Assembly: GCA_004294265.1 (NCBI GenBank)
Contig: REAG01000122.1
Coordinates: 1-33,971, forward strand
Reading direction: 5' to 3'
Source of the DNA: Cytophagales bacterium
GTDB lineage: Bacteria; Bacteroidota; Bacteroidia; Cytophagales; UBA9547
DNA length: 33,971 bases
How positions within the stretch are numbered: the first letter of the stretch is position 1; each line of letters opens with the position of its first letter. Shown one piece after another: positions 6,726-33,971 of the stretch. The notes beneath the pieces are model-generated. The model made no database searches, was not told the origin of the DNA, and saw only the letters and a program-made list of their open reading frames with translations. Both the position numbers and the translations under genes were made by a program.

Positions 6726-8792
6726 ATGAAATTTAAGATTTGGAAAAAAGCATTAATTTACATTTTTTTAATTTTTAACATTAATAGTTTTGCTCAAAAA
6801 AATGAAAGTGCAATAGTAGCTAAAGGTAAAGAATTTTTTGATAACGGAGATTTTTCAGATGCTAATACTTATTTTAAAGGTTTAGTAAGGCGAGATTCTA
6901 CAAATGCTGATTATCATTTTTGGTTGGCACGTTCTTACGAAGAAACTTCTTTTAATGAATTAGCATTATATCATTATAGGAAATCTTACCAATTTAATCC
7001 TAAAATATCTACCCAAATTTTATATTTAATTGCAAGAGCATATCAAGAAAATTTATTTTTTTCTGATGCAATCATACACTACAAATTATATAGTAAAGCA
7101 CTAGATAAAATGCAAAATGTGGATGTAATGCAAGAAAGCATGAAAGTGGCTAAACGGTTAAATGAATGTGAAAATGGTAAAATTATTGTTGCTCATCCTT
7201 ACGAACATAAAATTTATCATCTTTCAAAAGTATTAAATTCCGAGTATGCAGAATATACACCCTCGGTTTCGGCAGATAATAAAAAAATGATTTTTACTTC
7301 ACGCAGACCCAACGGAATTTCCGAAAAAAAAGACATAGATAATGCTTATTTTGAAGATGTTTGGATGTCCACTAAAAATACAAAAGGCGAATGGACAGAG
7401 CCTGTAAACATGGGTGCACCGATTAATTCTGAATTTCATGATGCTTGTATTTCTATGAATGCAGCAGGAGATGAGATGTTCTTATATAAATCTATTAATG
7501 GAGGAGATTTATTTGAATCCGATTTAGTAAATGGGAAATGGACAAAACCTGCTCCGCTAAAGCACATAAACACAAAATTTAAAGAGCCTTCAATTTGCAT
7601 TTCGGCAGATAACAAAACGATTTATTTTTCGAGTGACCGACCTGGAGGGCATGGTGGATTGGATATTTACAAATGCGAAAAGGGTAAAGATAATGAATGG
7701 AGCAAGCCTATAAATATGGGTTCTTTGATAAATTCAGAATATGACGAAGATAGTCCTTTTCTTTCTCCCGATGGAAAAGCTTTGTTTTTTAGTTCAAACG
7801 GTCATAGTAGCATGGGGGGATATGATATTTTTAGTATTAATTATGATGCTAGAAAAAAACAATGGAGCAAGCCACACAACATGGGATTTCCTATAAACTC
7901 AGCCGAAAATGATATTTATTTTAACATTTCAGGCGACCACAAAACGGCTTATTACTCTTCTTCAAAAAAAGATGGTTTTGGCGAAAAAGATATTTATATG
8001 ATTTTGATTGATAGCACTTATATTGACAAACCTTTGCAAACCGTTGAATTAGGAATTGAAGCCCCTAAACATATTGCAGCAGTACATCCTAATTCGCTAA
8101 AAATGCACGAAGGACATAAAGTAAATTTTATCAATCCTCAAAACATAGTTGAATATACAGGAAAAGTATTAGATGAAGACCAAAATCCGATTGAGTCTGA
8201 TATTTTAGTAAAAAAAGAAAACTCAGCAGAAGAACCAAAATCTTACCATACTTCCGCAAATGGAGAATTTAATGTACTACTAGAAAAAGGATTTCAATAT
8301 GGAATTGATATTCAAAAAGATGGTTATGTTTTTGCATCAAATAATATAGATTTAACTCCAACATCTCGAACGTTTGCAACAACTACAACTACCACAGTTG
8401 TATTTCCAAAGTTTATTTCTGAAAAAGTCGTTTTAAGAAAACCAAAAGTAGGAGCTAAAATCGAACTTAAAAATGTTTTTTATAAAACAGGAAGTTCCGC
8501 TTTAACCGAAGATTCTTACGCTGAAATTCAGGTATTAATTAATTTTTTAAAAAGAAATCCTACGATAAAAATCATAGTTTCTGGGCATACAGACAATCGA
8601 GGTTCGGTAGAATTAAACAAAAAAATATCCACAAGTAGAGCCAAAGCCATACAATCTTTGCTTGAAACCAAAGGTATTGATGCAAAAAGAATAAGTTCGA
8701 TTGGTTATGGACCAGAAAAACCAATTGCAGATAATGCAACCGAACTAGGAAGAAGTAAGAACCGAAGAACTGAATTTGAAATTGCTTTTTAA
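6726..8792 (+). CDS. PorE-like envelope protein: TPR, PD40 beta-propeller, carboxypeptidase-regulatory-like segment, OmpA domain
   Basis: 688 aa, signal peptide; blades such as ADNKTIYFSSDRPGGHGGLDIY; C-terminal VSGHTDNRGSVELNKKISTSRAKAIQSLLETKGIDAKRISSIGYG. Confidence 0.88.
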   Translation: MKFKIWKKALIYIFLIFNINSFAQKNESAIVAKGKEFFDNGDFSDANTYFKGLVRRDSTNADYHFWLARSYEETSFNELALYHYRKSYQFNPKISTQILYLIARAYQENLFFSDAIIHYKLYSKALDKMQNVDVMQESMKVAKRLNECENGKIIVAHPYEHKIYHLSKVLNSEYAEYTPSVSADNKKMIFTSRRPNGISEKKDIDNAYFEDVWMSTKNTKGEWTEPVNMGAPINSEFHDACISMNAAGDEMFLYKSINGGDLFESDLVNGKWTKPAPLKHINTKFKEPSICISADNKTIYFSSDRPGGHGGLDIYKCEKGKDNEWSKPINMGSLINSEYDEDSPFLSPDGKALFFSSNGHSSMGGYDIFSINYDARKKQWSKPHNMGFPINSAENDIYFNISGDHKTAYYSSSKKDGFGEKDIYMILIDSTYIDKPLQTVELGIEAPKHIAAVHPNSLKMHEGHKVNFINPQNIVEYTGKVLDEDQNPIESDILVKKENSAEEPKSYHTSANGEFNVLLEKGFQYGIDIQKDGYVFASNNIDLTPTSRTFATTTTTTVVFPKFISEKVVLRKPKVGAKIELKNVFYKTGSSALTEDSYAEIQVLINFLKRNPTIKIIVSGHTDNRGSVELNKKISTSRAKAIQSLLETKGIDAKRISSIGYGPEKPIADNATELGRSKNRRTEFEIAF

Positions 8793-11193: not shown

Positions 11194-11241
11194 ATATTAT
11201 ATTATATTATATTATATTATATTATATTATATTATATTATA
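11194..11241. repeat. Pentanucleotide microsatellite (ATATT)n, about 9.6 copies
   Basis: Uninterrupted ATATTATATTATATT... across 48 bp. Confidence 0.95.
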
Positions 11242-27672: not shown

Positions 27673-27719
27673 TATATTAATTTAATTTAATTTAATTTGG
27701 TTTAAATTAAATTAATATA
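27673..27719 (-). other. All-A/T 18-bp stem hairpin at the junction of two kinase genes
   Basis: TATATTAATTTAATTTAA (27673-27690) / TTAAATTAAATTAATATA (27702-27719), 11-nt loop. Confidence 0.6.
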
Positions 27720-30708
27720 GTTTTTTTAATAATTTTGGTATCTCTATTAAATCAAAAGATTGAATTGAAAAAGATAAATCATTCACTAAAATATGTAATA
27801 ATTTGTTTGATTCATATTCAGGTTGTTGTTTTATTTCTTCCAATAAAGTTATTAAATCTTCGTTGTTAAAACCACCTGCCGAAAGTTCATTATTCAAAAG
27901 TTTAGCTTTGTTTACTATGGCATCAGAAAGCACAAATTTATCATTGATTATTTGTTTAGAATCAATTTTAACACTTTCAATATTAGATATAGATATATTT
28001 GAAGGAATTATTCCTACCTCTGATTTCAAAAATTTAGCTAAACAAGAAAGTAAAGCTTGTTTGCTTACTGGTTTGGTAAGATAATCATTGAATTTTAGTT
28101 CTTTTATTCTATCTTGATCATCTTTCATAGCTTGAGCCGTGAGGGCAATAATCGGAATATGAGCGAGTTCTGGAATTCTATCAATAGTTGCTTTTGCCTC
28201 ATATCCATCCATAACGGGCATTTTTATATCCATAAACACAAACTCAAAAGGCTGTGATTTAAGTTTTTCTATGGCAATTTTTCCATTTTCAGCTTCCGTA
28301 ATATTTAAGCCATAAGGACGCAAAAATCCTTTGACCACTTCCCTATTCATCGCAATATCGTCCACCAAAAGAATAGAAGCATTATTGAAATGAATATCTT
28401 CATTAACGGTTTCAGTTACCATCTTTTGTTGTAAAGTTGCTACCGAAATGTTATATAAACATACCCTAAAAGTACTTCCTTTGCCCAATTCACTTTCCAC
28501 TTCGAGCTTTCCCCCCATCAATTCGACCAAACGTTTTGTGATGGTTAAGCCCAATCCTGTTCCACCAAATTTTCTATTTTCTTGCCCTTCTTGCTGGGTA
28601 AATGCTTCAAATATTTTGTTAATATCTTTTTGAGGAATACCAATGCCAGTGTCTATAATTTCAAATTTAATGTCCACCAAGCTATCCATTTTCTCTTTGT
28701 AGCTGCTCACAACTCTTAAAGTTACAGAGCCTTCACTTGTAAATTTAATGGCATTACCTACTAAATTAAAAATTACTTGACGCAATCTTAACTCATCTAA
28801 AAGTAAAGATTCTGGTAAAGATTTATCAATATCTAATTTAAGTTCAAGATTTTTTTCAGCTGTTTTGACCGTAAACACACTTATTATTTCTTCAAACATT
28901 CCTTTCGGATGGGTTGGTGCTAACTGTATTTCAAATTTCCCAGACTCAATTTTTGATAAATCCAGAATATCATTTATCAATCCTAATAAGTTTTTACCAC
29001 TCGAAAGTATATTTTTAATATACACTTTTTGCATCGGATCATCCACCATGTCGTTCAATAATTCAGCAAAACCAAGCACTGCATTCATAGGCGTACGAAT
29101 TTCGTGGCTCATATTTGCTAAAAATTCCGATTTTACTTTTGTGGCACTTTCGGCTTGATTTTTGGCATCTAAAACCGCTTCTTGCTGCGTAATCATCTCT
29201 TCTTGGTTTTGTTTCAGTTCCTCGTTTTGAGTTCCGATTTCTTCTACCATTTCTTGCAACTGAATTTGCTTATCTTTGATACTAAAAACCATGCCATTAA
29301 ATGCATTTACAAGATTTTTAACTTCAATCGGGCTTTCTACTTCGTTTGCTTTTGCCTCCAAATCACCTGCCTCAACCATGAGTGCTTTTTGAGATAAATC
29401 TAAAATGGGATTGGCGATATAATTTGCAACTTTAAAACTCAACCATATTACCAGCATAAAAATAAAAAGCAACATTACAATAATGATATTTCGCAATAAA
29501 ATAACACTTTCAAAGGTTTCTTGTTCTTCAATTTCACATACCAAATTCCAATTCAAACCCTCAATTTCTAAAGGAGAGAATGAAGTTAAAACTGATTTAC
29601 CAAGATAATTAGTGCTAATTTCTGTACTAGAAATTCCTTTATTTGCTTTCTCAGTTATGGGAGAATTTACATCATTAAATAAAATAGAAGAATTAGAGAA
29701 TTTCATTTCATCAATAATCGATTTATCTAAGTTTTTGATCGTTTCAAGTTCATAAAAGAATTTTGTTCTATTGTCTTTTAAAGCCCTAGCATCGCTTCTC
29801 ATTTTACCATCATTGCCCACCATAAAACTTTCCCCCGTCATCCCCAGTCCATCCTTAAGCCAATTTGATTGATTGGTCATTACTTCATTTAAAACATCAA
29901 TCGAAACTTGCATTAACAAAATGGCTATCCTTTTATTGCCATCGTAAATTGGTTTTGCTACAAACATAGAAGGGATGCCACGAGAAGGGTAATATATTTC
30001 AAAATCTGAAATAACTGAATTTACATTATTATCTATTTTTAATGCTTTATCAAATATTTTTCCTGAAATAAAATCCTTAAAAGGAGCTTCTTTCATACTT
30101 ACCGCTTCATCTGCCTCATGATTGGTATTGTAAAAACACTCTCCAGTGGCATCATCCAAAATCATGACATCGTAATATTTGAATGTTTTTGTAAATTCTT
30201 TAATCAATAAATCAGCTTTGGTGTGAGCCACATAATAAGGATGTAGGGACGAAATTAAATTACCTTTATAAGCCACAAAATGGTATTGATAAAATTTTCT
30301 TCGATCGTTTTTAGGAAATAAATTTTCTATGGGAAGTGTTTTTTGATTGCTTGAACTTATAGATTCAAAAAAATCTTTTCTATAAAATTCATTCATTTTA
30401 AATCCATAGTAATCACTATTTTTAGAGTCAATTTCGCTTTCAAAATAGGATTTTTTTAAATCATTTGCCGAATTTATAAACCAAGGACGTGTAGAAAGAT
30501 AGTATAAATCAGAGCGAACTTGCTTAAAATAATTTTCAATTTGTCGTTTTTTAATTTCTCGAATGGCAGTTAATTTATTAAAAGATTCTTCTTGGATGAC
30601 AATTTTGGCTCTTGTAAAAGATAAATAAGCAATAATCACGACAGGAATCATGACCAACATTAGAAAAAGTATAACTAAGCGACTTTTAAGACTTTGGAAT
30701 TTAAGCAT
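27712..30708 (-). CDS. Membrane hybrid sensor histidine kinase: periplasmic Cache-like sensor, HAMP, HisKA, HATPase, REC
   Basis: 998 aa; TM near residues 12-34 and 405-430; [65 protein letters not shown]...[16 protein letters not shown]. Confidence 0.92.
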
Positions 30709-31584: not shown

Positions 31585-33971
31585 ATGAGGTTTTTTTATA
31601 CATTTATATATATACTTTTTATTTTAACATTTCCTTCATTTTCACAACAAAAGTCGCCCGATGTTGAACTTGTGAATTTGGCAAACGAAATGTTTAATTT
31701 TGGTGATAAAAAAGATGCTCTTGCCGTTTATTTGCAAGCTGTTGAATTAAATCCAGATAATATTTCAGCTAATTTAATGGCTGGAAGGTGCTATATCGAA
31801 ACAATTAGCAAAGAACTTTCAGTAACATATTTAATAAAAGCCTATGAATTAGATAAAAATGTTTTACCAGATATATTATTTAAAATAGGTCAAGGTTATC
31901 AATTTGGTTCTCGTTTTGATGATGCAATCAAATATTATGAACTTTATAAACAAAACCTTACCGATGAGAAAACCGCTAAAATGTCGAGTAATGTTATGAA
32001 CGAAGTAATTCGTTCGGATAGAAAAATATTTGAATGTCAAAATGGAAAAAAATATCTTGCAGCTCCAAAAAATTATATTATTGAAAATTTAAAAGACGTT
32101 ATTAATTCCGAATATCCCGATTATGTTCCTTCGGTTACTGCCGATCAAAAAACGCTAATTTTTACTTCAAGACGTTCGGGCGGGGTTGGAAAAAATAAAG
32201 ATACCGATAACGAGTTTTTTGAAGATATTTGGATAGCAAAGAAAAAAGACAACGGTGAATGGGGCTATCCTACCAATGTGGGTCCGCCAATAAACACCAT
32301 TTCTCATGATGCAAACGTAAGTATTTCACCTGATGGTAAAAGAATTTTTATTTTTAAGCCCGAAAACGAAGGAGATTTGTTTGAATGTGAAATAAAACCA
32401 GACGGAAAATGGACTCAACCCAAAAGTTTGGGTTCAAATATAAACACTAAATACAGAGAATTATCAGTAACGATTTCTCAAGATGGGAAATCACTTTATT
32501 TTTCTAGCAATAGAGAAGGCGGCTTCGGTGGCTTGGATTTATATAGAAGTAGATTGGATGAAAATCAAAAATGGGGAACACCAGAAAATTTGGGTTCTGC
32601 CGTCAATACCGAATACGATGAGGATGCCCCATTCATAGATTCAGATGGAAAAACTTTGTATTTTTCTTCGCAAGGACACAAAGGAATTGGTGGTTATGAT
32701 ATTTATAAATCCGTTTGGGATCAGCCAAAAAGAAGTTGGACACTACCCGAAAATATGGGCTTTCCTCTCAATTCTCCTGATCATGATATTTATTTTGTGC
32801 TTTCAGGAGACAGGAAAACAGGATATTATGCCTCTGCAAAAGGCGATGGATTTGGGGACAAAGATATATACAAAATTTACCTTTCGCCTGATGAAAACGA
32901 TATATCTAAATTGCAAAAAGATGCAATTGCAACCATTGAAAAAAAACAAATTGAAGATATTGCTTTGCCAACTTTAAGCCTTGCTAATAAGAAAAAAATT
33001 ACTGCTTCCACAAAAACTGATGCTAATTCTAGGGTTGGTTCTATCGAAAAAACAATTTTAGATAAGAATTTAATGCCACAAAAAATAGCCAATACCACAT
33101 CAACTTCAGAGGTTTCAGCTTCAGTTTTGAATTTACCTAATTTAGAACAGAAAAACACAAATAGAACTTCTAAAGATGCTGGAAATGAACATAATGATAC
33201 TCCAAATACATCTAATACAAGTTTAAAAGACAAAACAAATAAATCACTTATAGCTCAAAATAGTATTTCTGGAACAAATTTTAATACTAAAACCAATGTT
33301 TTAAAATCTGAAAAAACTGAAACTATTTCTGCCAATTCAACCAATTTGAAAGATGCGAATACAACTGCAAAAACTGATGCAAATTCAGCAATTTCTGGCA
33401 ATTCAACTAATTTGAAAAATGCGAATTCATCTGCAAAAACTGAAACAAATTCAGCAATTTCTGCCAATTCAACCAATTTAAAAGATGCGAATACAACTGC
33501 AAAAACTGATGCAAATTCAGCAATTTCTGCCAATACAACCAATTTGAAAGATGCGAATACAACTGCAAAAACTGAAACAAATTCAGCAATTTCTGCCAAT
33601 TCAACCAATTTGAAAGATGCGAATACAACTGCAAAAACTGATGCAAATTCAACAATTTCTGCCAATTCAACCAATTTGAAAGATGCGAATACAACTGCAA
33701 AAACTGATGCAAATTCAGCAATTTCTGCCAATTCAACCAATTTGAAAGATGCGAATACAACTGCAAAAACTGAAACAAATTCTGCAATTTCTGCCAATTC
33801 AACCAATTTTAAAGATGCGAATTCAACTGCAAAAACTGATGCAAATTCAGCAATTTCTGCCAATTCAACCAATTTGAAAGATGCGAATTCAACTGCAAAA
33901 ACTGATGCAAATTCAGCAATTTCTGCCAATTCAACCAATTTGAAAGATGCGAATACAACTGCAAAAACTGA
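31585..33971 (+). CDS. PorE-like TPR + PD40 propeller protein with long C-terminal 22-aa tandem repeat array (partial, runs off window)
   Basis: Translated by hand: MRFFYTFIYILFILTFPSFSQQKSPDVELVNLANEMFNFGDKKDALAVYLQAVELNPDN... TPR; INSEYPDYVPSVTADQKTLIFTSRRSGGVG... propeller; then (ANSTNLKDANTTAKTDANSAIS)n. Frame is continuous to the window end. Close paralog of 6726..8792. Confidence 0.93.
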   Translation, partial: MRFFYTFIYILFILTFPSFSQQKSPDVELVNLANEMFNFGDKKDALAVYLQAVELNPDNISANLMAGRCYIETISKELSVTYLIKAYELDKNVLPDILFKIGQGYQFGSRFDDAIKYYELYKQNLTDEKTAKMSSNVMNEVIRSDRKIFECQNGKKYLAAPKNYIIENLKDVINSEYPDYVPSVTADQKTLIFTSRRSGGVGKNKDTDNEFFEDIWIAKKKDNGEWGYPTNVGPPINTISHDANVSISPDGKRIFIFKPENEGDLFECEIKPDGKWTQPKSLGSNINTKYRELSVTISQDGKSLYFSSNREGGFGGLDLYRSRLDENQKWGTPENLGSAVNTEYDEDAPFIDSDGKTLYFSSQGHKGIGGYDIYKSVWDQPKRSWTLPENMGFPLNSPDHDIYFVLSGDRKTGYYASAKGDGFGDKDIYKIYLSPDENDISKLQKDAIATIEKKQIEDIALPTLSLANKKKITASTKTDANSRVGSIEKTILDKNLMPQKIANTTSTSEVSASVLNLPNLEQKNTNRTSKDAGNEHNDTPNTSNTSLKDKTNKSLIAQNSISGTNFNTKTNVLKSEKTETISANSTNLKDANTTAKTDANSAISGNSTNLKNANSSAKTETNSAISANSTNLKDANTTAKTDANSAISANTTNLKDANTTAKTETNSAISANSTNLKDANTTAKTDANSTISANSTNLKDANTTAKTDANSAISANSTNLKDANTTAKTETNSAISANSTNFKDANSTAKTDANSAISANSTNLKDANSTAKTDANSAISANSTNLKDANTTAKT
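33331..33971 (+). repeat. 66-bp in-frame tandem repeat, nine complete units plus a partial tenth
   Basis: Unit GCCAATTCAACCAATTTGAAAGATGCGAATACAACTGCAAAAACTGATGCAAATTCAGCAATTTCT begins at 33331, 33397, 33463, 33529, 33595, 33661, 33727, 33793, 33859 and 33925. Confidence 0.98.

Follow-up and report, generated by a model that had tools for sequence, protein, structure and literature searches.

The 22-residue tandem array at the end of the analysed DNA is probably a long, repeat-built spacer within a secreted periplasmic protein, where it would connect a TPR-propeller scaffold to a peptidoglycan-binding OmpA domain and be selected for its length. We infer the periplasmic location, the peptidoglycan binding, the helical rod and the function as a length-selected tether. 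The window, that is, the whole stretch of DNA analysed, is an entire assembly contig of 33,971 nt (REAG01000122.1, contig C72 of genome G000), which ends within the array.

A predicted envelope protein with a repeat array in its linker

The array gene is read from the forward strand (31585..33969) and is still open at the contig end, so that the 795 amino acids given in the list of open reading frames represent the N-terminal part of a TPR, PD40 propeller, linker and repeat-array protein. Its product starts with a signal-peptide-like stretch, MRFFYTFIYILFILTFPSFSQQ. A TPR repeat follows at residues 30-59 (31672..31761, forward strand; Pfam PF13181, E=3e-6), and the helical TPR-like region extends to approximately residue 150, as seen from the helices in the model of an ortholog. 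The PD40 beta-propeller comprises four PD40 stretches whose coordinates are approximate (32062..32883, forward strand; PF07676, E=1e-29). Propeller beta strands were also drawn in the ortholog model, and the best Foldseek match was TolB. Between the propeller and the array lies a pre-array linker of 149 amino acids rich in N, T, S, and K (32884..33330, forward strand), predicted to be disordered by the low pLDDT of an AlphaFold2 model.

Inspected by eye, the first 30 residues of the G000 protein and of its ortholog in G002 lack a lipobox cysteine, and the cysteine present in the ortholog of G001 (LFLCS) does not match the lipobox pattern. A previous reading of this DNA, made from the sequence only, had suggested that the propeller may lie on the side of the outer membrane. 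The N-terminus, which looks like an ordinary signal peptide, gives no sign of an anchor in that membrane.

The array occupies 33331..33971 of the forward strand and is made of 66-bp (22-aa) units. Nine full units start at 33331, 33397, 33463, 33529, 33595, 33661, 33727, 33793, and 33859 and span 33331 to 33924, all in the frame of the ORF that begins at 31585, while 47 of the 66 bp of a tenth unit fill 33925-33971. Tandem repeat detection (TRF) returned a period of 66, 9.8 copies, 94% matches, and a score of 1168, far above that of every other array in the window. Elsewhere in the window, a perfect intergenic microsatellite, (ATATT)9.6, is found at 11194-11241. The unit count, frame, and start proposed by the sequence-only reading were thus confirmed; its end at 33971, however, is the end of the contig and not of the array, which continues on contig C1 (L004 1-41). 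A minus-strand open frame of 238 amino acids (33255-33971) was discarded as a by-product, since the stop-free 66-bp unit keeps this frame open; the other remaining reading frames across the array contain stops.

Comparison of the units showed, as the same reading had stated, no difference between units 1 and 6 and a single synonymous change between units 1 and 3. Unit 2 diverges most, carrying 7 changes. The ANxxxxxD-like internal periodicity that had been described could also be recovered: the unit displays an 8+8+6 pattern with 33 sub-block matches, and only 19 of 5000 codon-shuffled units reach as many.

The gene continues on a second contig

A search of the array DNA against its own genome matched, outside the window, only the first 41 bp of C1. 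Read in frame from the array, C1 encodes a non-repeat linker of about 41 amino acids, a CarboxypepD_reg-like domain (CRD), and an OmpA domain, with a stop at position 808. The OmpA domain matched PF00691 with an E-value of 7e-20 and 71.6 bits, against a gathering score of 27.2 bits. While the TPR, PD40, and OmpA matches were at or over the Pfam cut-offs, that of CarboxypepD_reg was below it (E=3e-5). As the repeat is found at a single locus, the frames match, and the same order of domains occurs in the uninterrupted ORF of a sister species, there are strong grounds to consider C72 and C1 as adjoining. The last unit on C1 differs from unit 10 (AATACAAACGAA versus AATACAACTGCA), hence the true array of G000 has at least 10 full units and a partial last one.

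These data bear out two predictions made from the window, namely that an OmpA domain would follow the array and that the array lies in the linker from propeller to OmpA. An OmpA domain was found on C1 and also within the single ORF of the sister species (G002), and domains lie on both sides of the array, across the two joined contigs and, in G002, within one ORF. An early stop without any further domain, which had been named as contrary evidence, was looked for past the array and is absent; the CRD-like and OmpA domains follow instead. In G000 (C72/C1) as in G001 (C66/C139), the gene is cut in the array, and annotation would turn its halves into two separate truncated proteins.

Unrelated arrays at the same site in three species

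The genus was sampled through three species with one genome each (G000, G001, and G002); the two besides G000 are MAGs, one entered as Cytophagales bacterium (JAAFIH010000002.1) and the other as Bacteroidetes bacterium (RDZG01000067.1). The array genes of all three group into a single clade (support 100/100), and the TPR-propeller part of the two congeneric orthologs is 86% and 78% identical. The ortholog of G002 (L025 3174-6431, 1085 aa) runs uninterrupted from propeller through arrays and CRD to OmpA, and over the C-terminal part it shares 66% identity with the counterpart on C1. In its linker, a 15-bp unit (EKLAN) is repeated 32.7 times and, after it, a 54-bp, 18-aa unit (KLESQKLAKEEAARVAAE) 6.1 times, all assembled through in one 211-kb contig. 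Meanwhile, the linker of G001 displays a K/A/E-rich unit of about 40 amino acids on both broken ends; C66 ends and C139 (L059) begins inside it, from which we infer their join.

The arrays of the three species are mutually unrelated, although they occupy the same site of the linker. Judging by these sequences, what differs between species goes beyond a change in copy number: the whole array is swapped for unrelated repeats. The pre-array linker is loosely conserved, and the block (L/I)NLP...TSKD(A/G)G(N/D), which reads VLNLPNLEQKNTNRTSKDAGN in G000, is common to all three congeners and is possibly a short binding motif.

Among 343 order-level genomes, the 22-aa unit was detected in its own genome only, being absent from both congeners and from 340 others. 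A Pfam search of the array fragment gave no match, nor did a PDB sequence search up to E=10. With neither database matching and no copy in the 342 other genomes, membership in a known repeat family was rejected, in agreement with the initial remark that no named family has this unit. A viral or mobile origin was also discarded, as no relative was found among viral contigs.

A hybrid histidine kinase gene is found upstream of the array gene in both G000 (window 27712-30708, minus strand) and G002 (L025 2-1312, minus strand); in the latter, two genes lie between the kinase and the array gene, one of them kdsA-like. The window encodes two more PD40-OmpA proteins, at 6726-8792 and 575-2728. Across the genus, a propeller query retrieved 21-24 matches per genome, indicating a large paralogous set, and PorP-family matches numbered 13-21.

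Linker length and predicted structure

The linker from propeller to CRD measures at least 422 amino acids in G000, 437 in G002, and at least 259 in G001, whereas in the sampled homologs of other genera it measures about 17-75. Array size per species of the genus ranges from more than 160 to more than 270 residues. Open frames with strong matches rarely exceeded 850 amino acids among 81 order-level and 41 class-level genomes. Homologs of 800-915 amino acids from other genera were considered as array carriers and rejected, since the five that were read owe their length to additional C-terminal regions or to a second region resembling a CRD.

The best AlphaFold2 model of the G000 linker fragment shows about 100 disordered residues followed by a helix of 222 residues (residues 101-322) with pLDDT mostly of 70-92; the mean pLDDT of the five models, obtained from single-sequence input, went from 71.6 down to 38.9. 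For the G002 protein, AlphaFold2 drew the TPR helices, the propeller strands, the CRD, and the OmpA domain, with residues 445-564 disordered and array helices at 568-720 (153 residues), 739-839 (101), and 847-866, the pLDDT of the arrays being roughly 45-75. Both modelled arrays may therefore be long helices, a prediction that deserves low to moderate trust. At 0.15 nm per residue, the modelled helices would give rods of about 33-41 nm, which is longer than the usual distance between outer membrane and wall and counts against the spacer reading.

Measures based on composition were less clear on helicity. All arrays fall on the disordered side of the charge-hydropathy plot, and the mean helix propensity of the G000 unit is only 0.99, while the arrays of G001 and G002 have higher values. 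A coiled coil was considered for the 22-aa unit, whose length is twice 11 and whose hydrophobic residues follow a hendecad roughly; it was rejected because 24% of shuffled units match the helical moment of the real one.

A proposed spacer selected for length and its alternatives

Based on these findings, we postulate that the array serves as a spacer between two functional ends. The N-terminal head of TPR and PD40 propeller would bind a partner, the C-terminal CRD and OmpA domains would form the wall-binding end, and the spacer would set the reach and stiffness between the two, much as domain II of TolA. The ancestor of the genus would have had an expandable linker at this site, whose array is continually rewritten by slippage or recombination. 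The feature conserved would then be a long spacer at this site, perhaps with a rod-like helical character, and not the sequence of the unit. Thus, the length or stiffness of the spacer may matter more than its sequence. A stronger version holds that close species independently rebuilt a linker of about 420-440 amino acids, as an alpha-helical rod, out of unrelated repeats, under selection for a length or stiffness matched to the spacing of the envelope; we put this forward tentatively, as a possibility with the chances rather against it.

The main rival is the neutral expansion of a minisatellite, in which the linker tolerates any sequence that is in frame, free of stops, and soluble, so that its length and composition would carry no function and slippage would fill it with whichever local sequence was duplicated first. 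Several traits of the array are what such a process would leave behind. The G000 unit seems to have been seeded from the linker just upstream, as its local alignment to this linker (KTDANS...ANTTS) was equalled by 16 of 2000 shuffles. At residue 16, the unit types run D-E-D-E-D-D-E-D-D, a pattern suggestive of units being duplicated two at a time, by multi-unit slippage. The distinct changes among units comprise 9 nonsynonymous and 3 synonymous, out of 143 and 48 possible, respectively; small as these numbers are, this fits the ratio expected without selection on residues, which is compatible with a spacer and also with junk. The arrays of G002 lean towards synonymous changes, at nonsynonymous to synonymous counts of 3:3 (33:8 possible) and 6:6 (114:37 possible), again small numbers. 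That each congener has unrelated units is also expected under neutral expansion. On the other hand, a neutral process would not readily account for the occurrence of long arrays in all three sampled species of the genus and in none of the homologs inspected outside it, nor for the similar lengths of the best-resolved linkers (at least 422 and 437 amino acids) built from unrelated units, nor for the maintenance of the frame and the absence of stops. On this evidence, we consider neutral expansion less likely than a spacer selected for length.

Two further explanations are improbable to different degrees. The repeats could form a binding platform, each contacting a ligand or partner (a metal, an attached glycan, or a protein), with copy number tuning valency. 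Bacteroidota place O-glycans on periplasmic and surface proteins, and near-identical units, some of them homogenised, would suit such a platform. Nevertheless, the O-glycosylation motif of Bacteroidetes, D(S/T)(A/I/L/V/M/T), is absent from the 22-aa unit, and the unit is not kept in the nearest species, so that any specific ligand would need to differ from one species to the next; we regard a platform as improbable. The least probable explanation is that the repeats or the C72-C1 junction were misassembled. Contigs do break within the array in 2 of the 3 genomes, hence the number and order of units on C72 may be collapsed or shuffled. Yet the units carry individual differences, the arrays of G002 were assembled in a 211-kb contig with the same order of domains, and frame and domain order are consistent across the break between C72 and C1, by which an artefact or chimera is largely refuted.

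A spacer selected for length remains our preferred reading. For variable repeat spacers in the periplasm, the main known case is TolA, in which copy number tunes stress tolerance. Unrelated arrays attached to front parts that are 78-86% identical offer a natural experiment for asking which property of the spacer (length, stiffness, or sequence) is under selection in the tethers between envelope and wall of Bacteroidota. Since fragmented assemblies halved 2 of the 3 genes, the trait is probably undercounted.

Comparison with PorE, CHU_0125 and TolA

The array protein was initially described as PorE-like, which applies to its architecture and not to its family. Pfam matches and alignment recover the order TPR, PD40 propeller, CRD, and OmpA known from PorE (PMC5053529, PMC7192894), and its OmpA domain is close to that of PorE (6TOP) in sequence and fold. 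Meanwhile, the family model NF052230 (T9SS_PorE), with a cut-off of 600 bits, gave 178 bits for the N-terminal part, 109.6 for the C-terminal part, and 272 for the full-length ortholog, and no protein in the three genomes of the genus reached this cut-off. PorE is an outer-membrane lipoprotein required for T9SS secretion, while the array protein does not appear to be a lipoprotein by its sequence. In PorE of P. gingivalis, the propeller ends at residue 435 and the CRD starts at 441 (PMC7192894), leaving about 5 residues between them, as opposed to at least 422 in the G000 protein. G000 does possess a type IX secretion system, as indicated by GldM and 13 PorP-family matches; no porP gene was seen beside the array gene.

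CHU_0125, an OmpA-like protein of outer-membrane integrity, belongs to the same fold family as the array protein. Its family model (NF053607, cut-off 620 bits) gave 177 and 134 bits for the two parts and 308 for the ortholog, and the true CHU_0125 family member of G000 is a separate gene on C49 (641 bits). By these curated cut-offs, the array protein is neither a PorE nor a CHU_0125 equivalog. Loss of CHU_0125 leads to outer-membrane leakage and vesiculation (PMC5891637), which by analogy suggests the kind of role that such proteins might play. A fold match to chain H of the P. gingivalis BAM complex was dropped, as no description of a peptidoglycan-binding TPR-propeller protein was found in the BAM papers.

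The closest precedent for the proposed spacer is TolA, despite it being a protein of another family and phylum. The tolA gene of E. coli contains an in-frame repeat tract whose copy number varies among strains and alters deoxycholate, SDS, osmotic, and phage phenotypes (Zhou, Michiels and Aertsen 2012, PMC3477136). Domain II of TolA ranges from helical to proline-rich forms and in gamma-proteobacteria typically exceeds the width of the periplasm, and the domain II spacers of TolA and TonB vary widely between species in sequence and secondary structure (PMC12204202). TolA has its anchor in the inner membrane and exerts a pull on Pal, whereas the array protein would be secreted and carries a TPR-propeller on one flank and OmpA on the other, and its units are unrelated even between congeners whose folded parts are 78-86% identical. 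What the two have in common are in-frame repeats within a spacer between two functional ends.
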